Source: a bacterium (GTDB lineage: Bacteria > Verrucomicrobiota > Kiritimatiellia > RFP12 > UBA1067). Taken from it: DNA of 36,222 bases. Below are positions 6,692 to 23,444 of this stretch, piece after piece. Position numbers and translations under genes: made by a program. How positions within the stretch are numbered: the first letter of the stretch is position 1; each line of letters starts with the position of its first letter. The notes beneath the pieces were generated by a model that saw only the letters and a program-made list of their open reading frames with translations, searched no databases and had not been told where the DNA came from. The stretch is from NCBI GenBank assembly GCA_025360845.1, contig JANYBJ010000030.1, positions 1 through 36,222 of the forward strand, written 5' to 3'.

Positions 6692-7171
6692 TTACGACAC
6701 CGTCATCGACGTGGGGCCGGAAAGCATACCCAAGGTAGGGCTCACCGTAACATTTGAGTAGCTCCCCAGAGCCGTCGCGTTGGCGATGGAGATCGTCCGA
6801 TAGCCGGTGGCGTAGGTCGTGAAGATGTCGCAGTTGATCCGCAACACGCAGCACCATTTGAGAACACCGCTGAAGCAGCCTAGATAGAGGCTGTTGACCT
6901 TCCACGAAACCGATTTGATGCCGTTGGACGTTGTGAGATATCCGGACACCAGTTGAGCATCTCCCAAGGCCGCCGACCCGCCGCCGGTGGTCTTTGACGC
7001 GGTGACCGGACCCAGGTTAAACGCAGGGTATGATCCTGAGGTGATTACTCCGTTGTGGGTGACCTGAACGGAGGCCGGAAACGTGTCCCAATCGACCGCA
7101 ACGTAACCGGATGCGCAGCGGGCAAATTTAGGGTCTACAGATCCGGTATCGCTCAACAACCTTACGTCCAT
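6692..7171 (-). CDS. Hypothetical tail-tip protein, last gene of the late operon
   Basis: A 159-residue product rich in Ser, Thr and Gly without a recognised domain. The sequence looks beta-rich (VAVDWDTFPASVQVTHNGV, ISIANATALGSYSNVTVSP), as in small virion or receptor-binding proteins. An AGGAG site lies before the ATG, and the gene starts 13 bp after the preceding tail gene. It is the terminal gene, 60-100 bp from the prophage end. A tail tip or fibre part is inferred from position only. Confidence 0.5.
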   Translation of the reverse strand: MDVRLLSDTGSVDPKFARCASGYVAVDWDTFPASVQVTHNGVITSGSYPAFNLGPVTASKTTGGGSAALGDAQLVSGYLTTSNGIKSVSWKVNSLYLGCFSGVLKWCCVLRINCDIFTTYATGYRTISIANATALGSYSNVTVSPTLGMLSGPTSMTVS

Positions 7172-7184
7172 GGCGACACAACTC

Positions 7185-9140
7185 CTAGCTCAAGGTCAGG
7201 GTGACGACGGTCTGCCATCCGGGCACTCCAGAACTGTTACAAGCGAGCACCTTGTAAGCCGCAGCTCCAGAGGGCATGCCCACGGCGATCTCTGTTCCGT
7301 ACACCGCACCACAGAGCACCTGGGCAAGCTTGGCTTTGCAGGCCGACCCATCCATATAGGGTATGACCATCTCGCGAAGCTGGAGCGTCTGCGCCGCCGC
7401 GTTGCCCGACGTGGCGAAGGCGATGGCTGCGGGGTTGATGTCCACGAGGTGCGTGCGGGAACCGCTGTCCGCCGCCTCTACGGCAAAGCGCTTCTGAAGA
7501 CATGAGGGCGTGCCGTCCGCAACGCGGTCGTTTGGTGTTCCTGAAGCGCCGTCGATCTGGTTGCCGTCCGAAGCGTCGGCGTTATCGCGTCCAAGACGCA
7601 GGTAGGAGTAGCGGCGGCCCCGCGCAGCGCGGTAAACGGCCATCAGGTTGTCAGCCTCAAGGCGTCCGCAGGTGCCCGTCTTGACGGTCACCTTGCCGCC
7701 GCCGATGTCATAGGTCACATCCTGAACCACCGCCGCCATCGTCGCCCACTCGGCAAGCCCGCCCGTGCAGGAAAGGAGCTGCGCCAGACCAATGCCGAAG
7801 TCGCACTCTTGACCGTTAAACGTGACCTGACCGTCGTAGTGCAGACGGTTCCAACTCGCGAATAGCGCTGCGGCCATGCCTGTCGGAACAGGCTCCGGCT
7901 CTACCCACTCGGTCATCTTGCGATAGGTGCGCGTGACGGCATCGGTGGAGGTGCAGGTGAAGGTGATATCTTTTGAGCCCTCGTCGAGCACATGTGTCGT
8001 GTCGGTCGACTTGATCTTGTAAGACACGCGCACAGTGAACGTGTCGGACTCGGAGTGCTTCATGGTCCATGCAGGAACGGAGCCGTTGATGAGACGTGCC
8101 GGGTAGTTGTGGCTGCCGGTACCGCGTGACATGGACACGACAGACCAATCGCCGGACGTGAGCTGGGATAGCCAAGGGCAGAGTTTGGCGAGCAGCGTTT
8201 TTCCGGCTGACGATGTCCAGTCGGACGGGTAATCCTCGACCTCCACCGCCTGTTGAATAAAGGAGGCGTGGACGCCGTCCAGATCGTAGACCAAAGCCAC
8301 GCGCCTGGCATCGGTTGAAGCCCCGGCCGTCTCGGTGACGCGGCTCTTGACCGTGCGGCCGTCCCAGTCGCCCGTCCAGCGGTAGATGATCATGATTCCC
8401 GGAACCCGGATATCATAGCGCGGCGTGAAGCTCGCGCCCGTGGCAGCGCCGTTGACGAGCGCCCGCGACACGGCCGTCATGGCGGCAGGATCTGTGACGT
8501 TCAGAGCGGGAACGTAAGCGCCCGAAACCTGATGGTCGTAATCCCACCAGAGCACGTAATCAGGCGTGTAGCGGAGCATGGCGACAATGGCGTCCCATAC
8601 CTTGATGTTGTTGCGCTCGTCGAAGGGCACGGTCACGCCCGCCGCGATGGCGCCGATGTCGATGCCGACGCCCCGCGAGACGGCGTAGGCTGCGGCGTGG
8701 TTGATCACGCCGCCGGAGGCTAGGCGCGTGCCGTTGTTATCCTCGCCCAGCACCACGGTGGGCTCGTAGATCGTGGAGGCGACGCCCGCGCCCGTGGTGT
8801 ATGCCCACTCTTGTGAGTAGTCGCAGAGCTGGAGGGCGTAGGAAGGACCGAGGGCCGTGTACGTGATCGCCTGCGGCCCGCCGCCTTCGGCCTGACGCGG
8901 GGTCATTTCCACCGTGCCGACAAACACGCAGCGGTCTGTGGGGATGGCCTCGCTGTCTCTGCGGATCAGGGCGACCTTGGTGGCGAAAGGCCACGTCGGA
9001 GCGGCGACCCAATCGTTCGCCTGGGTGAAGACCAGCGAGTCGACGCCGTTGGCGCGGAGATTGAGAAGACAGGACGTGACGCCGCTGGCGGAGAGCAGGA
9101 CGGGCGCGTCGGTGTTCTTTTTGATGAGGTAGGAGATCAT
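7185..9140 (-). CDS. Phage tail hub/tip protein, divergent
   Basis: The 651-residue product follows the tape-measure gene, where siphophages usually encode distal tail and hub proteins. The N-terminus (ISYLIKKNTDAPVLLSASGV, then SLVFTQANDWVAAPTWPFATKVALIRRD) has the feel of gp44/late-control-type hub domains that set up a beta-barrel with a field for operators and units. No enzyme motif is visible. Four Cys lie in the middle and C-terminal parts (ECDFG, LLSCTGG, TGTCGRL, PSCLQK). I could not assign a named family; the hub role is inferred from gene order and size. Confidence 0.55.
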   Translation of the reverse strand: MISYLIKKNTDAPVLLSASGVTSCLLNLRANGVDSLVFTQANDWVAAPTWPFATKVALIRRDSEAIPTDRCVFVGTVEMTPRQAEGGGPQAITYTALGPSYALQLCDYSQEWAYTTGAGVASTIYEPTVVLGEDNNGTRLASGGVINHAAAYAVSRGVGIDIGAIAAGVTVPFDERNNIKVWDAIVAMLRYTPDYVLWWDYDHQVSGAYVPALNVTDPAAMTAVSRALVNGAATGASFTPRYDIRVPGIMIIYRWTGDWDGRTVKSRVTETAGASTDARRVALVYDLDGVHASFIQQAVEVEDYPSDWTSSAGKTLLAKLCPWLSQLTSGDWSVVSMSRGTGSHNYPARLINGSVPAWTMKHSESDTFTVRVSYKIKSTDTTHVLDEGSKDITFTCTSTDAVTRTYRKMTEWVEPEPVPTGMAAALFASWNRLHYDGQVTFNGQECDFGIGLAQLLSCTGGLAEWATMAAVVQDVTYDIGGGKVTVKTGTCGRLEADNLMAVYRAARGRRYSYLRLGRDNADASDGNQIDGASGTPNDRVADGTPSCLQKRFAVEAADSGSRTHLVDINPAAIAFATSGNAAAQTLQLREMVIPYMDGSACKAKLAQVLCGAVYGTEIAVGMPSGAAAYKVLACNSSGVPGWQTVVTLTLS

Positions 9141-9192: not shown

Positions 9193-10632
9193 CTAATTGT
9201 TGGGGATGTTCTTAAGCGCCTCGGATGTGCGAGTTGCTTGCGCGGTCAGACTCTCGATCTTAGCCTGTAATTCATGGTTCATTTTTGCGGTCTCTACCGC
9301 GAATTGCGAAAACGCCTTGTTGACATCTTTCTGAGAGGCTAGATGTTCGGCCACATGTTTATCCTTGTCATCCTTGGCCTGAAGATAACTTGTCTCGGTC
9401 TCCTTGCCTTTAATAACAATAGGCGCGTTGCGCGCGTCGCGTAAATCGGCGGCCTCTTTGGCCACCTTTTCAGCTAGATCCGCCTTCCTCTGCGCACGCT
9501 CCCGCATCGTGTCCTGGGCGTCTTCAATTTCCTTTGCTATTCGCTTCTTCTCTTGCTCTGCGTCATATTCGATCTGGCGCAATTCTATCTGGCGTGTCAC
9601 GCCGCCGGTCTTTGACGTGGTTACCTGCGTGTCGCGATTCATGCGGTTGGCCTCTGCCCTTTCCCCGATGGTGAACTGCTGCTGTTCTGCCGACACGGCT
9701 TTTGCCAGCGCCTCTTGAATCCCTTTTTCCATCTCTTCCGTCTTCGCTGTTAATCGCTCTAGGTCTGGCAGCGCCCGTGAGAAGGCCGTTATTCTCTTTG
9801 TTGGTTCAAGCGGATTGAACGCAGCGTTCTTTTCCGCGATTGCCTTCGCATATCTCTCGCTATATTGATCGCTGTAGTTCTTGAACCACCCCTCAAGCTC
9901 TTGTGCTAACGCGATGGAGTCTCTCTTCGTTTTTTCTAATGCGGAACCTTCACCACGCATGTCGGCAAGCTCGCGGTCGGACTTGCGCAATGCTGCGGCA
10001 TCGGTCAGCTCGGCTCGTTTTGTGGATGTCTCCAGATCCAACTTTCTCCGACCGAACGTATCGTCGGGCTGCAACTTGCGGACGGCTTCCGCGTGCGCCA
10101 GATCCAGCTTCGCCAGATCGGATGCGAGCCGGGCGTCATCCTTTGAAGCCTCAGCATCGGATAGGCGCTTGCGGGCCTCCTCTGCCATTGTGATGGCGTT
10201 GGCCAGCTCAAGATAATATCTCGTCGTGGACTTCACGCCTGCGTCCGCATTTCCGCTGGCGATGTCCCGCAGACTCTTAGCAAACGCCGACTGACGTTCT
10301 CTCAGCTCGTCGTACACCTTCTTCCAAGCTGCGAACGCGGCCAGCAGCAGACCCACAGGCCCGACAGCGGCGGCAAGTTTAGGGAACTGACCGGAGAGGT
10401 TCCGGACGGCCTGCCCCACGCCCATGACGCCGCCCTCTGTGACCTGCGTTGCGGCGTTGATCATGCCGAACGCCTTCTCAGCGCTGCCCGCCGCGGCCTT
10501 CGTGTTATCGCCCATCTCTTTGGCGCTCTTGCCGACTGCGGCCACGTTGTCGACGGCCTCCTTCGTGCCCTTGCCGTCGAAGAGCGTGCGGATGCGCATG
10601 ATCAGGGACATCTCGTTTGATGAATCAGCCAT
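9193..10632 (-). CDS. Short tail tape measure protein
   Basis: The 479-residue protein is dominated by long charged helical stretches (EEARKRLSDAEASKDDARLA, EYDAEQEKKRIAKEIEDAQD) with one hydrophobic segment near residues 85-110 (LAAAVGPVGLLLAAFAAWKK). This is the usual plan of a tape measure, which sets tail length and helps DNA entry. The start overlaps the preceding gpG-like gene by 8 bp. At about 1.5 angstrom per residue, 479 residues would fit a tail of roughly 70 nm, short for a siphophage. No peptidase or lysozyme domain is seen. Confidence 0.65.
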   Translation of the reverse strand: MADSSNEMSLIMRIRTLFDGKGTKEAVDNVAAVGKSAKEMGDNTKAAAGSAEKAFGMINAATQVTEGGVMGVGQAVRNLSGQFPKLAAAVGPVGLLLAAFAAWKKVYDELRERQSAFAKSLRDIASGNADAGVKSTTRYYLELANAITMAEEARKRLSDAEASKDDARLASDLAKLDLAHAEAVRKLQPDDTFGRRKLDLETSTKRAELTDAAALRKSDRELADMRGEGSALEKTKRDSIALAQELEGWFKNYSDQYSERYAKAIAEKNAAFNPLEPTKRITAFSRALPDLERLTAKTEEMEKGIQEALAKAVSAEQQQFTIGERAEANRMNRDTQVTTSKTGGVTRQIELRQIEYDAEQEKKRIAKEIEDAQDTMRERAQRKADLAEKVAKEAADLRDARNAPIVIKGKETETSYLQAKDDKDKHVAEHLASQKDVNKAFSQFAVETAKMNHELQAKIESLTAQATRTSEALKNIPNN

Positions 10633-11218
10633 TGGTTTGAGCCTTTCGGGAACGCAGGTTATTGAGACGCATGACGGCGAGACCGAGCACCACGTTGGCG
10701 GGCGGCAGCACGGTAGGGTCCGGGGCGATGGGCTTGGTGCGCTTGACGAGCCAGAACATCACGGTGCCGAGGTACTCACCCTCTTTGGGCTGCGCCACGA
10801 GCGCGGCCCTGTTGTGGGCCTTGAACACTACGATGCGCAGGTCGGGGAACTCGCGCGGCAATCGCCCGTAGGCCGCGCCACAGGCGGGGATAGCCAGCGC
10901 CCCTGCCCTGACAGGGCCGATGCCCTTGGGAGCGCCCGCGTAGCGCAGGCGCACGCCCTGATGCGTCACAGAGACGCTCAGGCCCTCGGCGTCGGTCGAG
11001 AACGTGACCGACTGCGCGGCCTTGCGCCAGAAGTGCGAGCGCCGACCGCCATCCGGATAGGTGTGCGCGTTGGTCTGATCGCGCATGCGCAGATGGCGCT
11101 GCACGAGGCGGGCCAGCTCGCCCGCGACGGCCTTGGATTCGCGGGCGGTGATCGGCCCGGCTGCGGTGAGCACCTTACCGGTCACGTCATCGTGGTCTAT
11201 GGATACGGTTAAGGACAT
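10625..11218 (-). CDS. Phage virion morphogenesis protein, Mu gpG-like
   Basis: The 197-residue product has the features of the Mu gpG/P2 gpS family: an N-terminal helical part followed by RRSHFWRKAAQSVTF, then a beta-rich segment with GVRLRYAGAPKGIGPVRAG. These proteins act at head completion or tail-head joining. It follows the MuF-like gene, as G follows F in Mu, which supports both calls. No clear Shine-Dalgarno sequence precedes the ATG, and translation is probably coupled to the upstream gene, whose stop is 12 bp earlier. Confidence 0.55.
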   Translation of the reverse strand: MSLTVSIDHDDVTGKVLTAAGPITARESKAVAGELARLVQRHLRMRDQTNAHTYPDGGRRSHFWRKAAQSVTFSTDAEGLSVSVTHQGVRLRYAGAPKGIGPVRAGALAIPACGAAYGRLPREFPDLRIVVFKAHNRAALVAQPKEGEYLGTVMFWLVKRTKPIAPDPTVLPPANVVLGLAVMRLNNLRSRKAQTNG

Positions 11219-11229
11219 AGGACGGATGA

Positions 11230-12075
11230 TCAGAGTTGCGTGAGGACGCCGCCTTCAAACGACGCTTCAGGGAACTGCGCGAGGATCGCCGCCATCAGGT
11301 CGGGAGAGCCGTCAGGCAGCGAAGCGACAAGCGGGTTGTTCTCGCCGAGGTCCATGGGGGCGGCGTGTTCGTTGGGGGAGATGATGCCGTAGGCTTCGCA
11401 GGTCTCGCGGTCGACGTCCTCGACCTCGCGCTTGGAGCCCCACGCGAAGGGCGGATACGGATAGCCGAAGATCGAGAGCCGCGCCCAGCCGGGATCGGAG
11501 CGCAGGGCCACGAAGTCGGAGCCGAACGGGCCGGGCAGGCCCGCCGCCTTCCAACGCTCCGACCACCAGCCGTCGCCGCGCGGCTCTTCGGCGTAAGAGG
11601 GCAGCAGACGCTGGCCGGGAAACTCGTCGAGAATCGCGGGGTCGTTCATCTGCTTGGAGTGCCCGAAGTTGCGGGCGAAGCTGACCGGGTAGTCGAGCTG
11701 CACGCGGATGCGGGCCTCGCTGCGAAGATCCTTGATCCCTCCCTCGGTGCCCTCGGCAGGCGTCCAGCCGAGCTGCTCAAGGTTCGCCCGCAGCAGCATG
11801 CGTGCGCGGGCCTCGGTCATGTACTGCCCTGGCTCGCGAGGTGTTCCATCCGGGTTGTGCTCGGGATCAAGCATCATGCCGATGATGTTGTCGAGCACGG
11901 TGAGATGGCGGGCGTCCTCGACACGGGCGCTGAAGACGCCGCGCTTGCGGATGAGCGGGTCGAGCGCCATCAGCTCGTCGGACGACAGCGAGGTGGGGAG
12001 ATGGCCGCGCAGGGAGCGGTCTTGCAAGGCCGTTTCAAAGGTCACCGGGTCGAGCAGTATGGAGGGGATAGACAT
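11230..12075 (-). CDS. Putative MuF-like head morphogenesis/minor head protein
   Basis: A 281-residue protein with an N-terminal RKRGVFSARVEDARHLTVLD and a C-terminal half rich in Trp, Pro and Phe (WARLSIFGYPYPPFAWGSKR, then VEDVDRETCEAYGI). The layout recalls the Mu F/SPP1 gp7 family, where a helical region is followed by a compact aromatic-rich segment ending in a conserved polar motif. The zinc-type CxC of classical MuF is not obvious. Its partner downstream looks like gpG, matching the F-G order of Mu, but the pair is displaced from its usual place between portal and protease. The call rests partly on that order. Confidence 0.42.
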   Translation of the reverse strand: MSIPSILLDPVTFETALQDRSLRGHLPTSLSSDELMALDPLIRKRGVFSARVEDARHLTVLDNIIGMMLDPEHNPDGTPREPGQYMTEARARMLLRANLEQLGWTPAEGTEGGIKDLRSEARIRVQLDYPVSFARNFGHSKQMNDPAILDEFPGQRLLPSYAEEPRGDGWWSERWKAAGLPGPFGSDFVALRSDPGWARLSIFGYPYPPFAWGSKREVEDVDRETCEAYGIISPNEHAAPMDLGENNPLVASLPDGSPDLMAAILAQFPEASFEGGVLTQL

Positions 12076-12121: not shown

Positions 12122-13000
12122 TCACTTGGCAGACAGTGTGTATGCATCGGCGGTGATCGCCACGGGCAACGTCGCGTTAGATGCAGAGAATCCTCGCTTG
12201 CGGAGCGCGTTCCACATGGCCGTCCGGTTGGCGGCATCATCGAGATTGATGATCGCCACATCCGGATGCGCTTGCTTGTAAGCCCGACAGCGGGAGCATG
12301 ACGGTCGACCGTAGACGCCCTCACCTGACGCGCCGGGAGTTCCGTTGTAGCCCGTCGTGTCGGCGGGAGCGGCCTCGGTTGACTGATCCGACGTAACGGA
12401 CGGAGCGGACTGATCGGAGGAGTCTTCAGAGGCGTCGGCGGTTGCGGCAGACGTTTGACTCGCTGCGCTCGCCTTTACTGGGACGCCTTGCGACTGGAGG
12501 CCCAGCAGCAGCAGGTTGCCGAGGATCTTGCCCATGTCGGCCTCGCCGGCAGAGCCCGCCTTGTCGATGCCCACGCCGCGCTCGGTGACGACCTGACCCT
12601 TGGTGGTCGTGGTCTCGGTGATATTGAGACCGGCGAGCGTGGATGATGCCTTCTCGCCGAACGCCAGGCCGACGTAGTGGGACTCTCCGGCCTTTCCGCT
12701 AATAACCGCGCAGCCGCTGGAGAGAAGGATGAAGGATAAAAGCAAAAGGATAAGCGGGGCGATCTTGCCGAGCTTGTCGAGGCGCATGCGGCGCACGGCA
12801 ACGTAAGCGGTCAAACCGCCCGTGGCAAGAGCGCCGACGCCCGTGCCGAGCAGAGGCAGGTTGTCGGTGATCCACTTGACGTCGCCGAACGCGGCCAGCA
12901 GGGCCGTTCCCATCGCGATGATGATGCCGATAGCCGCCGATATCCGCTGGCCGTAGCCGAGCGCCTTGGTTTCCACTTGGTCTTTGGGTGTGATGTCCAT
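12122..13000 (-). CDS. Membrane protein with lipobox-like segment and C-terminal glutaredoxin-like domain
   Basis: The 292-residue protein has three hydrophobic segments (about 20-40, 50-68 and 80-97). The last ends in a lipobox-like LSSGC (Cys97). A Ser/Ala/Asp-rich linker (about 175-225) leads to a C-terminal domain of ~63 residues beginning YGRPSCSRCRAYKQ, with a CxxC (Cys235, Cys238). It continues DVAIINLDDAANRTAMWNAL, like the beta-alpha-beta opening of glutaredoxin/thioredoxin folds. The TM pattern could serve as a holin or anchor. It lies in the exported block of the late operon. Function is not known; a thiol-disulfide role at the envelope is an inference from the CxxC. Confidence 0.55.
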   Translation of the reverse strand: MDITPKDQVETKALGYGQRISAAIGIIIAMGTALLAAFGDVKWITDNLPLLGTGVGALATGGLTAYVAVRRMRLDKLGKIAPLILLLLSFILLSSGCAVISGKAGESHYVGLAFGEKASSTLAGLNITETTTTKGQVVTERGVGIDKAGSAGEADMGKILGNLLLLGLQSQGVPVKASAASQTSAATADASEDSSDQSAPSVTSDQSTEAAPADTTGYNGTPGASGEGVYGRPSCSRCRAYKQAHPDVAIINLDDAANRTAMWNALRKRGFSASNATLPVAITADAYTLSAK

Positions 13001-13025
13001 GGTGTTGTTCCTTTGTTTTGATAGG

Positions 13026-13045
13026 GGGCGACCCGCCGGTCGCCC
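13026..13045 (-). repeat. Intercistronic GC hairpin, copy 1 of repeated family
   Basis: GGGCGACCCGCCGGTCGCCC forms a perfect 8-bp stem with a 4-nt loop. The same 20 bases plus the next five (GTACT) recur exactly at 17926. It lies 12 bp downstream of the stop of the gene ending at 13058. Confidence 0.7.
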
Positions 13046-13057
13046 GTACTGAGAGTG

Positions 13058-13753
13058 TCAGACCACGCGCTTGATGCCGTAGGCTGCGAGGGCTGCGGCC
13101 ACGCCAGCCGCGAACGCGGCCAGCTCTTTGGCGTTGTACTTGTTCCCGGCAGGGGGCTGCACGTCGGGAAGGGGAGCCGACACGCGGGCGGTGTGCGCGA
13201 CGCGCAGGGGCGCTACGCTGACGGTGCCGTCGCTCAGCGTGTGCTCGACCTTGTCGCCTCTGATCGTCGCCGAGAGTTCGCGGGGCTGCCGCTTGCCCAT
13301 CTTCATGACCTTTGTCTGTGCCAGCGCGTCTGTCTTGACGATGGCCTCCTCGGCCGGAGCGGGAGAATCCTCAATGACGGGCACGGTGCGGAGCCGGTCG
13401 CGGGGAGAGGTCTTGACCACAAATTCAGAGTTGGTCTGGACGCGTCCGCCTTCGTAGGTCACAACGTAGACGAGTTCCCAGAGCGCGGGAAGGTCGTTTG
13501 TCCCGGATAAGGTGATCCGCTCGGGGTAGGCCGGGGCGGCGGGCTTGACGATCTGCGAGTCGCGCCAGGTGCCGTCGCTCATCTTGTCTTTGTAGAGCAC
13601 GGCCGATTCGGTGTCGCCCATGCGCAGGCGCTCGACCGGGTGCGGCCCGAGTTCGGCATGCAGTAAGAGCGGCAGAAAGATGAGTGCCAGGGCGAACAGC
13701 AGAAAGATGAGCTGGGAGGCGCGAATCACGTAGTGGGTTAAGCGAGGACTCAT
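13058..13753 (-). CDS. Membrane-anchored phage protein of unknown function
   Basis: The 231-residue protein begins MSPRLTHYVIRASQLIFLLF and continues as a long hydrophobic segment (to ~residue 32), a signal anchor or uncleaved signal peptide. The middle is polar and beta-rich (RITLSGTNDLPALWELVYVV). The end, ELAAFAAGVAAALAAYGIKR, is a second hydrophobic segment. The ATG at 13753 overlaps the stop of the previous gene (ATGA), so the two are translationally coupled. The longer ORF in the track starts inside another gene in a different frame and is not used. The topology would suit an envelope-spanning protein such as a spanin, but no spanin signature is seen. Confidence 0.55.
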   Translation of the reverse strand: MSPRLTHYVIRASQLIFLLFALALIFLPLLLHAELGPHPVERLRMGDTESAVLYKDKMSDGTWRDSQIVKPAAPAYPERITLSGTNDLPALWELVYVVTYEGGRVQTNSEFVVKTSPRDRLRTVPVIEDSPAPAEEAIVKTDALAQTKVMKMGKRQPRELSATIRGDKVEHTLSDGTVSVAPLRVAHTARVSAPLPDVQPPAGNKYNAKELAAFAAGVAAALAAYGIKRVV

Positions 13754-14670
13754 AGCTCGTAGACTCCGTTTGTGACGGCGGTGCCGTCGAGGGTTGCGGA
13801 TACCGCGATGCCGCCTTTGTAGACGACCTGAAGGCGGCTGCCGAAATGGGTGTCGGTGCCGCTGAAAGGAAGAACCGTGACGCCGTTGGTGACGACGCTG
13901 ATGCCTCCGGACGGGACGATGAGCGGGGATGCCGACGAGCCGAAGCCGACCTCGTAAGCGGGGATCAGAACGGTGCCGATTGTCTCGGACGGCACCGTGA
14001 AGTCGTAGCGCACGCAGGGAGCGCCGCCGACGCTTTCGGTGGAGGGATAGTAGTTCGTGACGGCGGTGAGACGGAACGGCCCGCCGCCAACGTCCACGTC
14101 GGCGGCGATGCCCGGAGCCACGAGCGGAACCTCGCTGAACCAGACCCACGCGCTGATCACGGAGCCGTCCGCGTTCTGGCGCACGCGCTCGACCGTGGCC
14201 GCGATGTTGTGGTTCGTGACGCCGCCCGCGCCGCTGCGGGGAAGGAACGACGAGACGTAGATCACGCGGCGGGTGTTGTTGGTGACCATGTAGGCGGCCA
14301 GATCGAACTGATCGCTTGCGGCGGCGACGGTGTTGGAGGCCCCGGAGACGATCTGGTCCGCGAGGGACAGGAAGGCGTCGAGCACCGCGGCCTCGGACGC
14401 CTTGGCGACGGCCCCGCTCTCGTCGATGATGACTCCGCCGCTCATGGCCGTGACGTACTGGCAGACGTAAGCGCGTGGGCTGATGCCGCTCTTGGCTCCG
14501 GAGTAGACGGCCGACAGGCCCAGCACGATGCCGACCGCGATGCGGCCGAACACGGAGGGCGCGATCTTGGACAGGCTGCGGGCGACGCAGGGGAGCTGGC
14601 ATAGCGCCTGAAACACGCCCATGACCGACAGCACCCAGAACCAGTCGTATGCCGTGGCGTCAGCGAACAC
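13750..14670 (-). CDS. Phage protein with N-terminal membrane segment, unknown function
   Basis: The 306-residue product has a hydrophobic N-terminus (YDWFWVLSVMGVFQALCQLP and again FGRIAVGIVLGLSAVYSGAK), then a beta-rich body (VVTNGVTVLPFSGTDTHFGS). The start codon is GTG at 14670, backed by GGATAGGAGG immediately upstream, so translation begins inside the end of the preceding gene with an 11-bp overlap. Downstream it overlaps the next start (ATGA). It belongs to the five-gene exported or membrane block. No domain was recognised. Confidence 0.55.
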   Translation of the reverse strand: MFADATAYDWFWVLSVMGVFQALCQLPCVARSLSKIAPSVFGRIAVGIVLGLSAVYSGAKSGISPRAYVCQYVTAMSGGVIIDESGAVAKASEAAVLDAFLSLADQIVSGASNTVAAASDQFDLAAYMVTNNTRRVIYVSSFLPRSGAGGVTNHNIAATVERVRQNADGSVISAWVWFSEVPLVAPGIAADVDVGGGPFRLTAVTNYYPSTESVGGAPCVRYDFTVPSETIGTVLIPAYEVGFGSSASPLIVPSGGISVVTNGVTVLPFSGTDTHFGSRLQVVYKGGIAVSATLDGTAVTNGVYEL

Positions 14671-15385
14671 GGACGCCTCCTATCCACCGCATGGTGTTCG
14701 TGCCCTGCGTGATTGTCGCGGTGAGCGGGGCCACGCCGTTGACGGCGATACCGTTGTTGACCGGAAAGTACATCTGGTTCGTTCCCGAACCGGCAACGTC
14801 GGCGTGGACGCGGAAGAAGGCCGACGTCGTGGAAAGCGGCATGGAGACGGTGTTGCAATAGGCCTCGTACAGCGTGTCGCCGACGAGCACCTCGCCTAAA
14901 GAAACGTTGGCGCTTGAGAGGCGGTCCCATGCGTTTGTGCGGCCCATGCTGTCGGACGTGCGGACATAGGGCCACGCGCCGGGGTCGCTGGTGAAATAGG
15001 TCCAGATGCGGTGCCACGCCAGATTGTTGCTGACCGCCACGTTCTGGTCGAAGCGCACGATGCTGGCCATCAGGTTGGTGTCGGCCTCGATGCCAGGGGC
15101 GAAGGACTCGGCGAAGAGGCGGATGTAGCCGGTGGAGTTGCGGGCGCGTTCGAGCGCGACGATTCCGGCGACGGAGTTGGAGACCATCGCGGCGGCGACA
15201 TCGGCGGCCTGCGCGGCGGCTATCGCGGCCTGAACCCCGGCGGCGTTGTTGGCGAGGGTGTTGATGGAGGCGACGGTGTTGGACGGCCAGATGCTGCCGT
15301 CCGGACGCACGGTCACCAGCCCGGCGAGCTGGGCGCGGGCGGAAAGGCAGAAGGCGAAAGTCAAAAGGATGAAGAGCGTGCGCAT
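14660..15385 (-). CDS. Exported phage protein of unknown function
   Basis: The 241-residue frame starts MRTLFILLTFAFCLSARAQL, a textbook cleavable signal peptide with an ARAQ cleavage site. That is unusual for a gene in a virion operon. The rest is Ala/Asn/Thr-rich (NTLANNAAGVQAAIAAAQAA, a helical stretch), then WHRIWTYFTSDPGAWPYVRT. The ATG at 15385 overlaps the previous gene's stop by one base. The track's 409-residue ORF extends upstream in the wrong frame through another gene. The helical-then-globular layout recalls trimeric fibre shafts, but the signal peptide argues for export on its own. Confidence 0.58.
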   Translation of the reverse strand: MRTLFILLTFAFCLSARAQLAGLVTVRPDGSIWPSNTVASINTLANNAAGVQAAIAAAQAADVAAAMVSNSVAGIVALERARNSTGYIRLFAESFAPGIEADTNLMASIVRFDQNVAVSNNLAWHRIWTYFTSDPGAWPYVRTSDSMGRTNAWDRLSSANVSLGEVLVGDTLYEAYCNTVSMPLSTTSAFFRVHADVAGSGTNQMYFPVNNGIAVNGVAPLTATITQGTNTMRWIGGVRVR

Positions 15386-16455
15386 CAGCGGACCTCCCAG
15401 ACGGTGAATGAGAAGTTGGAGACGGAGACCTGTAGCCAGACGTTTGAACCGGCGTCGTAGAGCAGCCAGCCGGGGACGGCGTTGGTGGGGAGCGCCCGCT
15501 GCGGAAGAACATAGGCGAGACTGTTGGTCAGAACAGATGAGACCCGGTACAGCGTCACGGTTCCGGATGCGCCCGCTCCCGTGTTCAGCGTGTAGTTGGT
15601 CAAACCCTGCGGCAACTGCGTCGCGTAGTAGTTGTTCCACGGGACGGCGATGGAGGCGCTGACGGCGACGGAGCTGTTGGTCAGATAGGAGGCTCCCCAT
15701 CCTCCCGTAACATTGATCGGCCAGCGGCCCGCCTGCGTGAATAACGCCGGGGCGTTCAACACTTCGAACGTGCCGTTGGTAATAGATGTCCCCACGCATT
15801 TCACATACCAGCGGTTCGTGGAGGTGACCGTGTACTCGCTGATTGCTCCGCCTTGGCGAGACATCCACGTCGAGCGGTCGGCAGACCACCAGCGGGTGGA
15901 ATCGTCAGGAGGTATCGATTGAAGGGCGCTTGCAAGCGCGTTGCTGCCGCTGGCCCAGTCGGCGGCGCTGACCCACGGAGCGCCGGACACCGTGATCCCG
16001 GCGAAGTCCAGCGTGCGCACGGGCATGGGCAGGGCGTTGGGCGTGAAGCCGGGGCTAGCCAGCATGCGGATGTTGCCCGTCACGCGCCAGAGCGGCGAGG
16101 TAGAACCGGCCTGCCAGACACCGATCCAGTAGTAGTACATCGGTGCGCCGGTATCCATGGAGGGCGTCCACGTCGATTGCATGAGCCCGGCCTTCGGCGC
16201 TGAGATCGTCACGGAGTTTGTCCACCAGACGTTAGCCGTGGCGTTCGTGTACCAATACCAGCGGGCTTCCGCGCCGGTCAGATCCAGAGGCGCGAGCCCG
16301 TTGCGCAGGAAGATCTGCATGGAGACGGACTCGCCCTGCTTGTAGGTGCGCTGCACGGAGGTGTGCTGGGTGACGTCGACCGACCACGCGTCGGTGAGGG
16401 CGTGGGAGAATGGGACGGAGAGGACGGATAGGACAAATAGGACAAATGGTTTCAT
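15385..16455 (-). CDS. Exported BppU-like/Ig-like phage protein
   Basis: The 356-residue protein starts MKPFVLFVLSVLSVPFSHAL, a predicted signal peptide. Residues ~35-130 (RTYKQGESVSMQIFLRNGLA, LDLTGAEARWYWYT) resemble the N-terminal domain of BppU-type baseplate or tail proteins, an Ig-like fold. The remainder is rich in Asn, Thr and Trp and looks beta-structured. It is followed, with a one-base overlap, by another signal-peptide gene. A receptor-binding or tail-fibre role would fit the domain, while the signal peptide points to the envelope. I cannot decide between them. Confidence 0.52.
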   Translation of the reverse strand: MKPFVLFVLSVLSVPFSHALTDAWSVDVTQHTSVQRTYKQGESVSMQIFLRNGLAPLDLTGAEARWYWYTNATANVWWTNSVTISAPKAGLMQSTWTPSMDTGAPMYYYWIGVWQAGSTSPLWRVTGNIRMLASPGFTPNALPMPVRTLDFAGITVSGAPWVSAADWASGSNALASALQSIPPDDSTRWWSADRSTWMSRQGGAISEYTVTSTNRWYVKCVGTSITNGTFEVLNAPALFTQAGRWPINVTGGWGASYLTNSSVAVSASIAVPWNNYYATQLPQGLTNYTLNTGAGASGTVTLYRVSSVLTNSLAYVLPQRALPTNAVPGWLLYDAGSNVWLQVSVSNFSFTVWEVR

Positions 16456-16462
16456 GGCAATC

Positions 16463-16900
16463 CTAAACGATGTCGGTTATCACGGGGACAGAGGTTTTAA
16501 AGTGGAAGCGCACGTCGACCGAGCAGCCGTTTCGCAGGCAGGTCAGCTTCTGGATCACGGCCGCCGCGTAGGTGGTCAGCTTCGCGGCGACGGTGTCGCG
16601 CTCCTCAAGCGAGACGCCGCCGCGCGGAAGCGTCCCGGCGAGGCCGTGCGCGAAGGTGCGTGCGGCGTCCTGCGTGGCGAAGCGCTGTTCCACCCACAGG
16701 TCAAAGACGTGGACCCCGCAGCCCCTGTCGGCGGGCGTGGCGTTCGCCGCGCCGATGGGTTTGATATCCTCCACCGACCATTCCGTATCCACGTCGTCGC
16801 TCTGGCCGAGCGGCCCGGTGTAGTAGCCGATCTGTCCGGCGTTGCCTAAGCCGTGGCAGATAACGATGTCGCCGGAGGTGTGTTTGTACGTGATGGTCAT
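16463..16900 (-). CDS. Hypothetical phage protein after the tail tube gene
   Basis: The 145-residue product (MTITYKHTSGDIVICHGLGN onward) has no recognised family. The start at 16900 is chosen over the track's 16999 because CTCTCTGGAG lies directly upstream and the extra residues overlap a hairpin and the preceding stop. Between tail tube and tape measure, siphophages normally place tail assembly chaperones. A chaperone role is possible, but no frameshift signal or second ORF was noticed. Confidence 0.5.
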   Translation of the reverse strand: MTITYKHTSGDIVICHGLGNAGQIGYYTGPLGQSDDVDTEWSVEDIKPIGAANATPADRGCGVHVFDLWVEQRFATQDAARTFAHGLAGTLPRGGVSLEERDTVAAKLTTYAAAVIQKLTCLRNGCSVDVRFHFKTSVPVITDIV

Positions 16901-16944: not shown

Positions 16945-17904
16945 TTACGCGGTCATGGCGACGGAGCCGAGGGAGCCTGCCACGGGGTAGGCACGCCACG
17001 TCAGCTCGCCCGCGCGGGGCTCTTTCTCGCCGTAGACCATGGGCTTGGAGACGAGACGTGCGGCCTTGAGGATGGCGGTGCAGCCGGGGTTATCCTCGGC
17101 GAGGGTCAGATCCGCCGAGATGCTGGACTGGCCGAGCGCCCGCGACGCGCCGATGATGGTCGCGGCGATGAGGCCCGCGTCGGAGATGTTGACGGGGCGG
17201 CAGGAGGCCTCGACGGAGGCGCTCTCCAGGCGGAAGTCGTAGGTTCCTACATCGGGATTGTAACGCGGGGCGATCTGATGCGCGGCCTTGAGCGTCCAGC
17301 CCTTATCATCCGTCATGATGGTGAGCGGGGCGGCAAGGCCCCACGTCGCGAGACACGGCAGATGAACCCAGTCGGCGGCTGCGGGCACGGCGCTGAAGGT
17401 CACGGCGGATGGCGCGGTGAAAAGCGAACCGGCCGTGGTGCGTGCGAGCCCCTTGCCGATGATGCCCGTGATCTTGACTGCGCCCTCGAAGCGGGTGTTG
17501 CCCGTGCCGAAGCGGAGCGTGGGAAACTGCGTGACGCGGGCGTTGGTGAGCGTCAGGAGCTGGCCGTCGAGCGTGTGGACGTAGAGCGGGGTGTCGGTGC
17601 CGGAGAAGATCGACTGTCCCGGCTTGAGGGCGAACACGCCGCCGAAGAGAAAGGCGAGCATCGCGGAGCTGAAGTTACCGGCGGGGGTGAAGTCGACCTC
17701 GATGTACTCATCCATGCGCGGATCGTCGATATCTCCGAAGCCGGAGACGGGCATGGGCTTGGGCTTGTGGATGAGATGCACGGTGACGTTGCCGTTGCAC
17801 CAGCAGTATTTCCAGTTGGCCTGTAGGGCGGGCTTGTCGATGATGATGTGCGCAGGCCCCTCCAAGAGCAGCGTGCGGTCGATGGTCGGTGTGTATGCGG
17901 GCAT
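16945..17904 (-). CDS. Putative tail tube protein
   Basis: The 319-residue product is beta-rich, with MPAYTPTIDRTLLLEGPAHI at the start and DFTPAGNFSSAMLAFLFGGV around residue 75. The N-terminal segment about making a defined value or field and the C-terminal repeat-like strands are what phage tail tube proteins look like. Position also fits: after adaptor and terminator genes and before the tape measure. The start is supported by AAAGGAAACAAAAACC upstream. No sheath gene precedes it, which argues for a non-contractile tail. The assignment is from layout and size rather than a diagnostic motif. Confidence 0.5.
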   Translation of the reverse strand: MPAYTPTIDRTLLLEGPAHIIIDKPALQANWKYCWCNGNVTVHLIHKPKPMPVSGFGDIDDPRMDEYIEVDFTPAGNFSSAMLAFLFGGVFALKPGQSIFSGTDTPLYVHTLDGQLLTLTNARVTQFPTLRFGTGNTRFEGAVKITGIIGKGLARTTAGSLFTAPSAVTFSAVPAAADWVHLPCLATWGLAAPLTIMTDDKGWTLKAAHQIAPRYNPDVGTYDFRLESASVEASCRPVNISDAGLIAATIIGASRALGQSSISADLTLAEDNPGCTAILKAARLVSKPMVYGEKEPRAGELTWRAYPVAGSLGSVAMTA

Positions 17905-17925
17905 GGTTTTTGTTTCCTTTTGAGA

Positions 17926-17945
17926 GGGCGACCCGCCGGTCGCCC
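17926..17945 (-). repeat. Intercistronic GC hairpin, copy 3 (identical to 13026)
   Basis: Same 20-base palindrome GGGCGACCCGCCGGTCGCCC as at 13026, also followed by GTACT. It lies 3 bp from the stop of the gene ending at 17949 and 21 bp before the start of the tail tube gene. Confidence 0.7.
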
Positions 17946-17948
17946 GTA

Positions 17949-18506
17949 CTAGTCCGCCAGCAGCGAAGCGGGCGGGGCGATGATGTATGCGGTTGAGAAC
18001 GTGACCTCGGCTGTCTGGAGAGCGCCTTGCTCGCCTCCGGCCGTGAATGATTTGACGGCGCAGCAGCCGTTGCCGATCGACGCGCCGGACAGGCAGAGCA
18101 TAACCAGCTCCGCGCAGCGTGTGGCCGTGATGCCGGTGCCCGTCTTTCCGCGATTGGTTAGCGGAGATTCGGCGATGTTGACCACAAACGAGAAAGGGTC
18201 AAAGGAGACGGCATTGAGCATGCTTGCGTTGCGCGTGCCGCTGTCGAGGCCGACCACCATGCTGATGCCGATGGCCTTGAGTGCGGCGATCACGTCAGAG
18301 GCGACGGTGTGCTTGTCGGCGTAGGTGCATGATCCCGGCCGCTTCTGGCTGATGACCGGCGCGAGCGGAAGCCACTCGGTCAGGAAGCGCACGACGTGGA
18401 TCTGGAACGCGATGAGAGAGCCGTGGGTTTCGATGTCCGTGGCTTCGGGTGCCCTTGGAGGCGGAGCGGCGTTGAGCCAGAGTTTGGCTAGATCGAGTGT
18501 GGCCAT
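17949..18506 (-). CDS. Putative tail terminator/head-tail protein
   Basis: The 185-residue protein sits between the DUF1320-like adaptor and the tail tube gene, the usual place for a tail terminator (gpU/gp37-type). It starts two bases after the stop of the previous gene. Visible features are IETHGSLIAFQIHVVRFLTE and TSDVIAALKAIGISMVVG-like text (ASDVIAALKAIGISMVVGLD), compatible with the alpha-beta fold of terminators. No family motif is certain, so the role is from position. Confidence 0.45.
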   Translation of the reverse strand: MATLDLAKLWLNAAPPPRAPEATDIETHGSLIAFQIHVVRFLTEWLPLAPVISQKRPGSCTYADKHTVASDVIAALKAIGISMVVGLDSGTRNASMLNAVSFDPFSFVVNIAESPLTNRGKTGTGITATRCAELVMLCLSGASIGNGCCAVKSFTAGGEQGALQTAEVTFSTAYIIAPPASLLAD

Positions 18507-19043: not shown

Positions 19044-19439
19044 TCAAGGCCCTACTTTTCTCACAAAGGCCACGGTGCCCGTGGCGGTGGCTGCCGGAGT
19101 GAACAGCAGCCTGTCTCCGGGCATGATCTGCGTGTTCGTGACGATGGCCGTGTTGGTGCCGCCGGAGGAGATGATGACGGCGATCTGGTTGGTGACCGTG
19201 ATCGCGCCGATCAGCTCCACCTGGGAGACCGTGACGGTGGACACGGCGGGCGAGAAGCGCCACAGGTCCACCTTTTCAAGCGTTCCGTTCTGGAAGAGCG
19301 GTACGGTGAACGTCTGGGTGGAGGCGTTGGTCACGGCCACATAGTCGCGGGTGGGCTGCTGGGCGTCCGCTTGAGGCGGATCAACCAGCCCGACAATAGC
19401 CGCGGCGAGCGCGGCCATAAAGATGAATCTGGATCTCAT
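19044..19439 (-). CDS. Small exported protein encoded next to the major capsid gene
   Basis: The 131-residue product starts MRSRFIFMAALAAAIVGLVD followed by PPQADAQQ, a clear signal peptide with an ADA-Q cleavage site. The mature part is Thr/Val-rich and beta-like (TQTFTVPLFQNGTLEKVDLW, TVTVSQVELIGAITVTNQI). A head-fibre or decoration protein would be expected here, but the signal peptide is strange for a virion protein made in the cytosol. It lies between major capsid and the DUF1320-like gene. Confidence 0.55.
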   Translation of the reverse strand: MRSRFIFMAALAAAIVGLVDPPQADAQQPTRDYVAVTNASTQTFTVPLFQNGTLEKVDLWRFSPAVSTVTVSQVELIGAITVTNQIAVIISSGGTNTAIVTNTQIMPGDRLLFTPAATATGTVAFVRKVGP

Positions 19440-19508: not shown

Positions 19509-20429
19509 TTACGACAGGGTGATGCGGCGGGCGCACGCGGCGGATACCACCTGCACATCCTCTGACCAATCCACAGCGAGGATGTCGCTGCGGGCCGCGT
19601 CCTCGCGGTAGGTGTAGACGTCCTCGACCGAGCTTGCGCCGATGGAGAACGTCTTGGCGAAGCCCGGATCGTACTGCGTCGGGTTTTCCGAACGCAGGAA
19701 CAGGAACACTTCGCCGCCGACGATGTTGACCGCGTTTTTGGAGACGCCGAACTTGGTCGTATCCCGCGAGAGGATGCCGACCTTGATCTGAATGGAGGGG
19801 TTCAGCAGCATGGAGCTGAAGACGCCCATGTCCACCGAGGCGTTGTCCGCGCCGGGGCGGCGCTTGATCACCATCGGGTGGTTCTTGAGGATGCGCCATG
19901 CGCCGAGGCCGATGACCATCGCGTTGGGCATCATGCCCGTATCAATGGAGATGGCTTCGATCTGCGCGTCGATCTCAAGCACGGGGTCGACCGTCGCGTC
20001 GCTCCACTTGCCGGACCCGGCGACGGCGGAGACTCCCGCCTTGACGATGTCGACGACCTTCTTCTCGCGGGCCACGCCGCCGCTGATCACCAGCGTGCGC
20101 GTCTTGGCCTCTTCGAGGTTCTGCTGGGCGTCTCCCGCGTCGTTGCGCTCGGCGTCGTCGATGGCGACCTCCAGAGCCTGCGAGCGGCAGTTGAACGATC
20201 CGTCCGTGGCCTCGAACTTGATGCGCGTGGCATGGCCGCCCAACGCGCGGGCGGTGTCGTAGATCTGGAAGGCGTTTTTATCCGAAAACTTTTTGTAGTA
20301 CCCGGAGCCTACACCGACCTGGACACGCGGCGCCAGAAATTCCGCGATGGCGGAATTCGTATCTTGGGAGACGCCGTAAGCGTACGTCTTGAGCGTCTCT
20401 TTGTATTGTGCTGTTCCTCTGCGACCCAT
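19509..20429 (-). CDS. Major capsid protein
   Basis: The 306-residue product lies directly after the protease/scaffold and decoration genes. Its layout is that of HK97-fold capsids: an N-terminal arm (YKETLKTYAYGVSQDTNSAI, then EFLAPRVQV), an E-loop-like region (KKFSDKNAFQIYDTARALGG), a central helical spine (AERNDAGDAQQNLEEAKTRT) and DTGMMPNAMVIGLGAWRILK, which is typical of Mu T/phage-E-type capsids. The C-terminus (VDWSEDVQVVSAACARRITL) is also characteristic. A Shine-Dalgarno AAGGAA precedes the start. Confidence 0.8.
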   Translation of the reverse strand: MGRRGTAQYKETLKTYAYGVSQDTNSAIAEFLAPRVQVGVGSGYYKKFSDKNAFQIYDTARALGGHATRIKFEATDGSFNCRSQALEVAIDDAERNDAGDAQQNLEEAKTRTLVISGGVAREKKVVDIVKAGVSAVAGSGKWSDATVDPVLEIDAQIEAISIDTGMMPNAMVIGLGAWRILKNHPMVIKRRPGADNASVDMGVFSSMLLNPSIQIKVGILSRDTTKFGVSKNAVNIVGGEVFLFLRSENPTQYDPGFAKTFSIGASSVEDVYTYREDAARSDILAVDWSEDVQVVSAACARRITLS

Positions 20430-20904: not shown

Positions 20905-21381
20905 TTATTCCGCCGACACCTCGTCGGCGAACAGTTCGGGGTTGTTGACGCGGCAAGCGGACCACGCCGCCGCGAAAGTCACTCCGGGGTTAGCGAAGCG
21001 GTATCCGTTCACGTCAGCCTGCCGCTTGGCGGCGATCCGCGCGTCGGGCTTCGCGTCGGTCGCGGAGACTTCCGGCGTCGAGGCATCACGCGCCACGATG
21101 CGCGGCTTGCCGACGAAGGGCTCGGCGCGGAAGTGTCCGAACGCGGCCTCGGTCGCCTCGGGGTTCGCCTCATATGTCGTGCGGAACATCGCCTCGTCGG
21201 CGATCTGGCTCTTGTGCGCGACGATGAACGCGTCGCACTTGGCCTTGCGGCAAGCGGTCTCAGCCGTCTTCTGGGCGGCGGCGGCTTGCGTGCCACCGTC
21301 GATCAGAGCCTGAACCTTGGCGCATGCCTCATCTTCTGTCGCAGTCTCGGGGAGCCCGAGCAGCGCGAGCAGTTTCTTCAT
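20905..21381 (-). CDS. Internal in-frame scaffold protein (Mu Z-like)
   Basis: Inside the protease gene, the codon for Met180 is preceded by AAGGAG with an 8-base spacer to ATG. This is far stronger than chance, since the surrounding codons need not supply it. Translation from there gives 158 residues beginning MKKLLALLGLPETATEDEAC, the helical, charged scaffold part alone. Mu makes its scaffold Z in this way from the 3' part of gene I. Expression is inferred from the site. Confidence 0.65.
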   Translation of the reverse strand: MKKLLALLGLPETATEDEACAKVQALIDGGTQAAAAQKTAETACRKAKCDAFIVAHKSQIADEAMFRTTYEANPEATEAAFGHFRAEPFVGKPRIVARDASTPEVSATDAKPDARIAAKRQADVNGYRFANPGVTFAAAWSACRVNNPELFADEVSAE

Positions 21382-21918
21382 GGTTGCGTCTCCTTGTTGG
21401 GTTTGATCTTCCGCCGCACGCGCGGCGGCGAATGTTGAGAGCGTATCGAACTGAGGCGTGTTGGTCATGGCGATGCTCGTGATGTCGACCGGGCGGAAGC
21501 GGTTGCCGCCGAGCGGCTCCAGATCCATGACGGGGCTGCGGCTGATCAGGATCTTGCCGTCCCACAGCTTTCGGCCCGGCTCGGTAAAGTCCCAGCGCGT
21601 CCAGACGCCTTCGGCATCGGCGCGGATATCCTTCGCCCACGCCATGGCGTCGGACTCTTTGTTGGCCATGAGGCTGAAGTGTTCGCGGTCCACGAGAAAG
21701 CCACGGAAAGCAGGATCTGCGGCCCGCTCTTTGAATGCGGCGATACAGCGGTCGATGGCCGTCTGATCCACGACGATGGTTCCCGTGACTTTCTTGCCTT
21801 TGAAGATGAGCCGCTTGTCGGGATACTCGCCGATGGCGGGCAAGGTGTGGAACCAAGAGGCGTCGCCTTCCTTGGCCACGCTTCCGAGCAGGAAACAATC
21901 TGAGAACGGGCGCTTCAT
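20905..21918 (-). CDS. Mu I-like prohead protease with in-frame scaffold
   Basis: The 337-residue product matches the phage I-like protease family of Mu: GFLVDREHFSLMANKESDAM in the N-terminal half, DGKILISRSPVMDLEPLGG and VDITSIAMTNTPQF at the end of the protease region (~170). A low-complexity Ala/Glu/Lys-rich scaffold follows. It cuts scaffold and capsid during head maturation. The ATG overlaps the portal stop (ATGA). An internal start with a strong ribosome binding site lies at residue 180 and is listed separately, as in Mu I/Z. Confidence 0.78.
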   Translation of the reverse strand: MKRPFSDCFLLGSVAKEGDASWFHTLPAIGEYPDKRLIFKGKKVTGTIVVDQTAIDRCIAAFKERAADPAFRGFLVDREHFSLMANKESDAMAWAKDIRADAEGVWTRWDFTEPGRKLWDGKILISRSPVMDLEPLGGNRFRPVDITSIAMTNTPQFDTLSTFAAARAAEDQTQQGDATMKKLLALLGLPETATEDEACAKVQALIDGGTQAAAAQKTAETACRKAKCDAFIVAHKSQIADEAMFRTTYEANPEATEAAFGHFRAEPFVGKPRIVARDASTPEVSATDAKPDARIAAKRQADVNGYRFANPGVTFAAAWSACRVNNPELFADEVSAE

Positions 21919-23444
21919 TTCGCGGGCTCCTTTAAAGCGCCTTGCAGGAAGGCGCTGGACATGACCTTGTGATAGACCTCGGCCTGCGCGGGATCGGCGA
22001 GCATGGTCGCGGCGATCTGCGGCAGCTCCCCGCGCAGCTTACGGGCCGCCGCCTGCATGCCGGGCAGGTCTTTGGCGGTGAGCACGCGGGCGAGCGCCAG
22101 GGCGAGCGGCCTGTTGGCGACGGCCTGCGCCTGAGCGAGCGCGTCGGCTCCGGATTGCATGAGCGCCTCGGCGGCCGGATCTGATGCGCCACGGCTGCAA
22201 ACGGCGCGGAACAGCGAGGGCGCGGCTCCGGGAACGGAAGGGGCCGCGGGCCGCGCGAACCCCTTGATCGTGTAGCCGGTCTCTTTCTGGACCTGCGCGG
22301 GGTCGATGTCAAAACCCGCGTTGACGAGGGAGGTGACGTTGGCGACCACCTTGCCGATGTCCTTTTCCTGACGCGCCCGCAGGTTGAAAAAGGCCTGCGC
22401 AGGTCTGCCGGGGAAGCGTGCGGCGAGCGCGCGGCGGTCGTACTGCTGATGCAGGGGCTTGGAGACGTTACGCGCCACGCGCCGGATGATCTGATCCCAG
22501 GAAGACATGTGGGCGGAGCCCGCCAGCGTGCCGCTGCCCGCCTCGGTCAGCATCGTCAGCAGACCGCCCGTTCCCGCGAGCACCAACTGCTTCTGGAGCC
22601 ACTCAAGCCGAAGCTGGAACGGCTGCGTGCCGCGCGCCTCCGAAAGCGTCTTGACGTCAGATCCTGCGGGCAGCGCCCCGCTCGCGGCCTCCGACGCGTC
22701 CGCGGCGAGGTCGCGGTACTCGTCCTCTTTTCCGGCGGGAACCTTTTCCGGCATGATGATGAACACGCCGGGGATGCCGTAAATCTCTACGTAGGCGTCC
22801 CAGTCTTTTTCGGCGACCGTAGAGCGCACGTATTTGATCAGGCCGATTCGGTTCACCGGGCGTTTGGACGTGAGCAGAATGTAATCCTCCGGATTCAATC
22901 GATTGGCGAGCGGCATCGAACAGAATGAGGCGGTGGAGGCGTTGGGGTTCCATGCCCATTCTTGCCGCGATCCGTTGCGCACCATGTTCCACTGCGGAAG
23001 GATTTCGAAATGCTCAAGAGACCAATCATCGGAGAGATGCGGCTGCAAGTGAGAGAAGCCACGGAACCGCGCCATGACGAGGTGCTCAATCGCCTCGGGA
23101 AGGTTGTCGCACTGCGCATACGATTCACGCAGGAACGCGGCCTGTTCGTCGGCAAGCACCGAATCAAATCCGAGTGAGTCCTCGGGGATGGTCGCAATCT
23201 CATCCTCGCAGTCGGCAACACCAGAAAGCGTCCTCTCAATGATCACCATCAGGTCTGGGTCGGTGGCCTCAATTCCGGTCTCCGCTCCGTAGAGCCACTG
23301 AAGATCGGACATGATTCCGCGCTGCGCCTGTTCCATCAGCATGACGGCACGCGGCATGTTCAGGTGGCGGAGAGGGTTGCTGTTGTCGCGCCACTTGTTC
23401 ACGGCGGTGAGCGTGCGCATGAGCTGCTGTGCCGATGTCTTCAT
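21915..23444 (-). CDS. Portal protein, DUF935 (Mu gp29-like)
   Basis: The product is 509 residues from MKTSAQQLMRTLTAVNKWRD. It has the DUF935 portal pattern: PRAVMLMEQAQRGIMSDLQW, GIPGVFIIMPEKVPAGKEDE, GSAHMSSWDQIIRRVARNVS and FFNLRARQEKDIGKVVANVT. The dodecameric portal is the channel for DNA packaging. The start at 23444 overlaps the terminase stop (ATGA), and the track's longer version is out of the expected start. It is followed by the protease gene, again with ATGA overlap. Confidence 0.82.
   Translation of the reverse strand: MKTSAQQLMRTLTAVNKWRDNSNPLRHLNMPRAVMLMEQAQRGIMSDLQWLYGAETGIEATDPDLMVIIERTLSGVADCEDEIATIPEDSLGFDSVLADEQAAFLRESYAQCDNLPEAIEHLVMARFRGFSHLQPHLSDDWSLEHFEILPQWNMVRNGSRQEWAWNPNASTASFCSMPLANRLNPEDYILLTSKRPVNRIGLIKYVRSTVAEKDWDAYVEIYGIPGVFIIMPEKVPAGKEDEYRDLAADASEAASGALPAGSDVKTLSEARGTQPFQLRLEWLQKQLVLAGTGGLLTMLTEAGSGTLAGSAHMSSWDQIIRRVARNVSKPLHQQYDRRALAARFPGRPAQAFFNLRARQEKDIGKVVANVTSLVNAGFDIDPAQVQKETGYTIKGFARPAAPSVPGAAPSLFRAVCSRGASDPAAEALMQSGADALAQAQAVANRPLALALARVLTAKDLPGMQAAARKLRGELPQIAATMLADPAQAEVYHKVMSSAFLQGALKEPAK

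Follow-up and report, generated by a model that had tools for sequence, protein, structure and literature searches.

A conserved block of proteins with predicted signal peptides or membrane segments, one with a predicted baseplate-type docking fold, in the late operon of a Kiritimatiellae prophage

Why would a tailed phage fit proteins of its virion operon with export signals? By the textbook account, Caudoviricetes complete their virions inside the cytosol. The question is raised by a Kiritimatiellae-type prophage-like sequence (G000:C118; 36,222 nucleotides, the whole stretch analysed and hereafter the window), whose minus strand holds a late virion operon, with all its genes on that one strand and FluMu-like head genes among them. 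Five consecutive genes of this operon, E1 (15385..16455), E2 (14660..15385), E3 (13750..14670), E4 (13058..13753) and E5 (12122..13000), all on the minus strand like the other window genes given below, are our subject. The sequence supports export signals, a docking fold, conservation of the block, its gene order and its place in a shared late operon. The reading that we favour, and to which we give an even chance, is that the five genes form an exported host-recognition module coupled to a lysis cassette, with fibres that would mature in the periplasm and meet the virions at lysis.

All five frames are in place and their junctions are tight: the end of E1 and the start of E2 both fall at 15385, E2 and E3 overlap by 11 nucleotides, and E3 and E4 by 4. 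Read directly, E1 begins with a textbook signal peptide (SP), MKPFVLFVLSVLSVPFSHA (16399..16455), with a predicted cut before LTDAW at a position kept in our alignment of the family (A1), and E2 begins with another, MRTLFILLTFAFCLSARA. E3 has transmembrane (TM) segments at its N-terminus, E4 a long hydrophobic leader or SP, MSPRLTHYVIRASQLIFLLFALALIFLPLLLHA, and a hydrophobic C-terminal helix, and E5 a two-TM stretch. The preliminary description of this locus, which saw two clear signal peptides, three N-terminal membrane segments and a single co-translated, envelope-targeted module, is borne out on each of these points.

Are these signals conserved? A rule-based test, which asks for a basic start, a 10-residue hydrophobic core and small residues at -3 and -1, was applied to the products of every operon gene and its homologues in 57 non-redundant loci. 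SP-like N-termini were found in 41 of 48 E1 homologues, against 2 of 271 control proteins from fifteen other gene families of the same operons. A larger set of 61 distinct homologues of E1 has an SP-like extension in 51, with a median of 24 residues ahead of the domain, and for E2 the count is 29 of 31. The contrast with the controls has a Fisher value of 3e-47, which ignores relatedness. The letters of the E1 leader diverge freely in alignment A1, and the conserved domain starts right after the small-residue cut site; by the same test, the n-h-c layout of a Sec signal peptide with a signal peptidase I site is present. We also looked near the mature end for an alternative start from which a cytosolic form could begin: 10 of 84 open reading frames (ORFs) have such a codon preceded by a Shine-Dalgarno-like site, mostly GTG and at no common position. 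That the export signals of the module are real and conserved is well supported, and from them we infer secretion itself.

Ten E1 homologues are without an SP: L071; L094-L098, from one host genus and with a polar N-terminus; L053, in which the E1 domain is in frame with an upstream tail gene; and L074, L127 and L129, which are broken frames. Two further loci of the L094-L098 host genus, L187 and L188, likewise have an SP-less E1 with a polar N-terminal extension, next to an E2 that keeps its SP. The finding extends past the five-gene block to a sixth, overlooked protein, E0 (19044..19439), small and encoded directly 3' of the major capsid gene, with SP-like N-termini in all six homologues (L044, L061, L133, L135, L062 and L196 loci). 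By its place E0 would be a secreted head decoration protein. Another small SP-led protein directly follows the E1-E5 module in L139 (14340-14816).

What kind of protein carries these signals? E1 consists of the SP (about residues 1-19), a BppU-N-like docking domain (about 20-140) and a variable C-terminal part. AlphaFold (AF2) models residues 20-140 with a predicted local distance difference test score (pLDDT) of about 96, and in the PDB the best 17 Foldseek matches of this domain fall on docking domains of phage baseplates, necks or connectors. They include the baseplates of NF5 (9m8o) and 80alpha (6v8i, TMt 0.75), ORF48 (BppU) of TP901-1 (4v96/3uh8, TMt 0.68) and the neck proteins of Bas63 (9mt4) and Sf14 (9c39); the AF2 model together with 6v8i, 4v96, 3uh8 and 9m8o gives E1 the BppU-N beta-sandwich fold. 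Matches in BFVD are likewise BppU-domain, baseplate and neck-passage proteins. Sequence profiles recover this fold in few members: among 25 E1 relatives, Pfam BppU_N (PF10651) matched two (best 4.4e-5) and the PTR tail repeat one, the window's own E1 had no match, and a search of the relatives with the BppU_N model itself found nothing. Against Pfam and PHROGs, E1 to E5 of the window returned no useful match.

In E1 relatives, what follows the docking domain is long and variable. The L122 relative carries the tail-fibre signatures VNNKTGAVTL and STKVATTAFV, and in the loci examined all four ORFs with such classic signatures are SP-led (L122, L078 and two in L190). L197, related more remotely within the class, encodes an exported fibre with a Collar domain (PF07484 2e-19, PHROG 2e-28). 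Because it joins an N-terminal docking domain to a variable, fibre-like part, E1 looks like a virion fibre or baseplate-type protein, as modelled, and not like a moron; fibre function would follow from this likeness. The preliminary description had taken the five proteins to be foreign to the virion, a view that the docking fold of E1 and the fibre repeats of its relatives do not support. Given these two features, the surprise is that the host-recognition virion proteins themselves appear to be exported.

Does the block travel as a unit? E1 homologues occur in 37 of 144 relative genomes, in named Kiritimatiellae metagenome-assembled genomes (rumen, gut, termites) and in 13 IMG/VR viral contigs; no INPHARED phage was found with an E1 relative. 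The pattern scan worked on a tighter subset of the E1 alignment, the whole of which was too diverse for it. Conservation in related prophages, which the preliminary description had proposed as a check, is seen: the order E1-E2-E3-E4 recurs in L061, L076, L139 and L140, and E1-E2-E3 in L133. Its place varies: in the window it lies between tail genes, in L115 it follows the hub-like gene, and in L050 it closes the tail genes at their 3' end. On contig C25 of the same host genome lies a phage of another virion type (GP7 capsid, 2.7e-78). Its fibre-like protein starts with a lipoprotein leader, has C-terminal modules that match the E1s of L076, L061 and L135, and is followed by E2, E3, E4, a holin-like gene and E5. 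In the C137 phage, an SP-led fibre with a DNPHGTTAAQIG repeat and leucine-rich repeats precedes an E5 whose N-part is clearly that of a holin (PF23987 4.3e-10), and in the E1-less phages L179, L180, L182 and L190 another SP-led fibre-like gene directly precedes E2. We read these gene orders as a mobile, lysis-linked module, E1-E2-E3-E4-(holin/lipoprotein), which is found again in unrelated virion types. We found no account of exported tail fibres in the literature searched, with partial coverage, and to that extent the earlier suggestion of an undescribed system stands.

The remaining genes may supply partners and a link to lysis. E2 has an SP, a 42-residue helix and a beta domain, as judged from its alignment, its homologues and a model with a pLDDT of 61. 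E3 joins its TM segments to an E2-related domain: each profile matches the other's members, and pairwise BLAST of E2 against E3 alone was not significant. Homologues of E4 are present in L061, L076, L139, L140 and L054. In E5, the holin-like two-TM stretch is followed in frame by a lipobox, LSSGC; the N-part of its L078 homologue matches Phage_holin_10 (PF23987, 4.3e-10), and matches carried by or adjoining E5 relatives also include Holin_LLH (PF09682, 5e-7). The lysis role that was proposed for the block thus fits only its 3' end. The fusion of a holin-like part to a lipoprotein is present in the window (12122-13000), L139 (13742-14302) and L078 (9556-10461); L054 has one gene for the holin and another for the lipoprotein. 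Window E5 and the L054 lipoprotein have in common a CxxC glutaredoxin-like C-tail (RPSC[SG]RCRAY). No endolysin was identified among the window genes. Genes for subtilase, papain-like and GDSL hydrolases lie downstream of the module near lysis genes in L181 (5102-5875), L193 (3269-3994), L184 (3022-3653), L180 (12430-12987) and L044 (3614-4201). The idea of a host lacking peptidoglycan, lysed by proteases instead of endolysins, was dropped, transpeptidases and Mur ligases being present.

We propose the following model, in which secretion, fibre function, attachment at lysis and the roles of E2 to E4 are what we infer. The late operon message would give rise to head and tail proteins made in the cytosol, while E1 and E2 from the same message would be secreted by Sec and E3, perhaps also E4, inserted in the membrane. 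E2, secreted, and E3, its membrane-anchored relative, would act as partners, each built of a helical stem and a beta domain, and a fibre complex of E1 and E2 would fold in the periplasm. E4 and E5 would lead into the lysis cassette of holin and lipoprotein. Once the inner membrane has been opened by the holin, the lysis triggered by this 3' end of the module would mix particles assembled in the cytosol with the fibres in the periplasm, and the particles could pick the fibres up shortly before release or in the course of it.

Two phages bear on the wider form of this idea. In L194 (598-1779) and L195 (2688-3608), one frame encodes a soluble N-domain, then a hydrophobic, signal-peptide-like segment inside the chain that ends in a plausible cut site, and then the part that forms the fibre, whose starts match, PLDDIPGDTPIMTNVV and PLNDLPGTTPIMTNVV; these ORFs are possible transmembrane tail fibres. 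It is conceivable, at somewhat less than even chances, that particles are built from two compartments, with head and tail cytosolic and the host-recognition fibres periplasmic after Sec export, joined only at lysis, and that in these two phages a single chain comprises the soluble domain, the membrane segment and the exported fibre. A related conjecture is that the cytosolic proteins or domains encoded in front of exported fibres represent BppU domains that have split off. Profile comparison to alignment A1 gave it no support for L195 and L054 and weak support for L078.

Several points weigh against an exported fibre module. The SP assignments come from a rule-based test, and secretion and presence in the virion are predictions from sequence. 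Because some E1 lineages (L071, L094-L098) are without an SP, export appears dispensable for E1 function. The leaders of the fibre-like proteins of L054, L067 and L052 look lipoprotein-type and would tether a fibre to a membrane. For E2, the fold search returned nothing from the PDB below 1e-3. Secreted Collar-domain proteins that look cellular occur in these hosts as well, so that a distal Collar domain does not by itself prove a virion fibre, and some of the distal domains could be of a surface-protein kind. A Pfam Collar search, tried as an unbiased fibre test, returned mostly cellular-looking secreted proteins of about 340 residues and was not decisive. A secreted family of mostly this length, ending in a partial phage Collar domain, is widespread in Kiritimatiellae genomes (L201, L202, L206, L208, L214, L215, L218-L220, L225 and L227).

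The main rival is receptor blocking, in which the fibre, once exported, and the partners anchored in the membrane would bind up the receptor that the phage itself uses, within the envelope of the producing cell, late in infection or in debris, and would guard against superinfection or loss of progeny by a logic like that of Llp and Cor; E1 might then also serve virions. We regard this as unlikely, although export signals throughout the module, a membrane-anchored E3 and distal modules common to different phage types all agree with it, and its best argument is the lipoprotein-led versions, such as the L054 fibre leader, which would anchor a receptor-binding part in cis. The best counter is that E1 retains a BppU-N virion-docking fold, for which blocking has no use. 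In addition, the genes sit in the late virion operon with no promoter-like site of their own (none was found on the minus strand inside the operon in a scan of 6.4-20.6 kb, where terminator-like sites are at chance level only), and no second fibre-like gene that could serve the virion was recognised in the ORF list of the window phage, which was read by eye.

An ordinary cargo, in which a moron-like envelope operon has settled among tail genes beside lysis functions and the E1 fold is a chance or decayed likeness, seems improbable. Its precedent is lambda Lom, whose gene lies between those for the tail spike and the fibre and whose product is exported (PMC12309495). The block and its order are nevertheless kept across distant phages and virion types, and the docking fold and the tail-fibre repeats of E1-type proteins argue against cargo as well. 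Least probable is that the proteins stay in the virion unexported and insert hydrophobic N-termini into the target membrane at DNA delivery, for although some tail-tip proteins have hydrophobic parts and L194 and L195 place such a segment between two soluble domains, the segments here have all of the n-h-c layout, including basic starts and small residues at -3/-1, run straight into a conserved domain, are carried by five to six different proteins and in places include lipoboxes.

In transcription order the operon runs from the terminase large subunit (23441..24901; phrog_2, 2e-20) through the portal (21915..23444; phrog_113, 7e-16, query range 21915-23573), the head maturation protease/scaffold (20905..21918; phrog_328, 3e-23) and the major capsid protein (19509..20429; phrog_1005, 1.5e-44) to E0, and then through virion genes (18958-16463) to E1. 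Two of these are conserved and cytosolic: 16945..17904, a tail protein by position (21 homologues, 1 SP-like), and 16463..16900, just upstream of E1 (18 homologues, none SP-like). Downstream of the module follow two conserved virion genes, 11230..12075 (23 homologues) and 10625..11218 (22 homologues), again with no SP-like member, a tape-measure-like gene by position and composition (9193..10632; no PHROG match), a tail hub-like gene by position (7185..9140) and a last small gene (6692..7171), after which come host-type genes such as a FabH-like synthase. The labels previously given to three of these genes, tail tube for 16945-17904, MuF for 11230-12075 and gpG for 10625-11218, find no backing in Pfam or PHROGs searches. 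A REP-like palindrome, GTACGGGCGACCGGCGGGTCGCCC, lies in two operon gaps, 13016-13059 (E4-E5) and 17918-17950, and in about 20 further places across many host contigs, often just 5' of genes. In L047 (6584-10575) and L049 (645-2028), a FluMu-like capsid, connector-like and lysis genes run directly into host-type genes; with no tail genes, these are remnants or tail-less elements, and L047 has exported proteins between the genes.

What would follow if the two-compartment view were true? It would describe a different order of tailed-phage morphogenesis, with fibres matured outside the cytosol, where disulfides, glycosylation and proteolysis could act on them, and added at release. The rule that an exported protein is not a virion protein would then fail, changing how receptor-binding proteins are recognised in annotation. 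It would also offer a testable handle on the phages of an almost uncultured and poorly known group of gut bacteria.

How does the module compare with known systems? T5 Llp and the Cor proteins of phi80 and N15 are exported phage envelope proteins. Like them and Lom, the module is phage-coded and, by prediction, exported, and some of them lie near tail genes; they are, however, small barrels or lipoproteins that have no virion-docking domain and form no multi-gene fibre block. Superinfection exclusion proteins are small envelope proteins with expression of their own, in the lysogen or early; the module proteins measure 230-360 residues, and inside the late operon no promoter-like site was found on the minus strand. 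Holin/spanin cassettes resemble the 3' end, where E5 relatives carry Phage_holin_10, Holin_LLH and a lipoprotein, and differ in that the E1 fold is not of a lysis type and E5 fuses its holin-like part to the lipoprotein. With phage tail fibres that bear Collar domains or NPHG/KTGAV/ATTAFV repeats, L122, L078, L190 and L197 have the repeats in common; known tail fibres are cytosolic, whereas these are SP-led. Another likeness is to TP901-1, whose BppU and neck passage structure (PF10651) have a fold like that predicted for the N-terminal docking domain of E1, and whose gene order BppU-BppL-ORF50-NPS-hol-lys resembles the fibre/baseplate-then-holin order here. Members of the BppU_N class are cytosolic, with the docking domain at the very N-terminus, as in ORF48 and NPS, which begin with it and have no SP; E1, like most of its relatives, places a Sec signal peptide ahead of that domain and is accompanied by E2 to E4, which are predicted to be exported.

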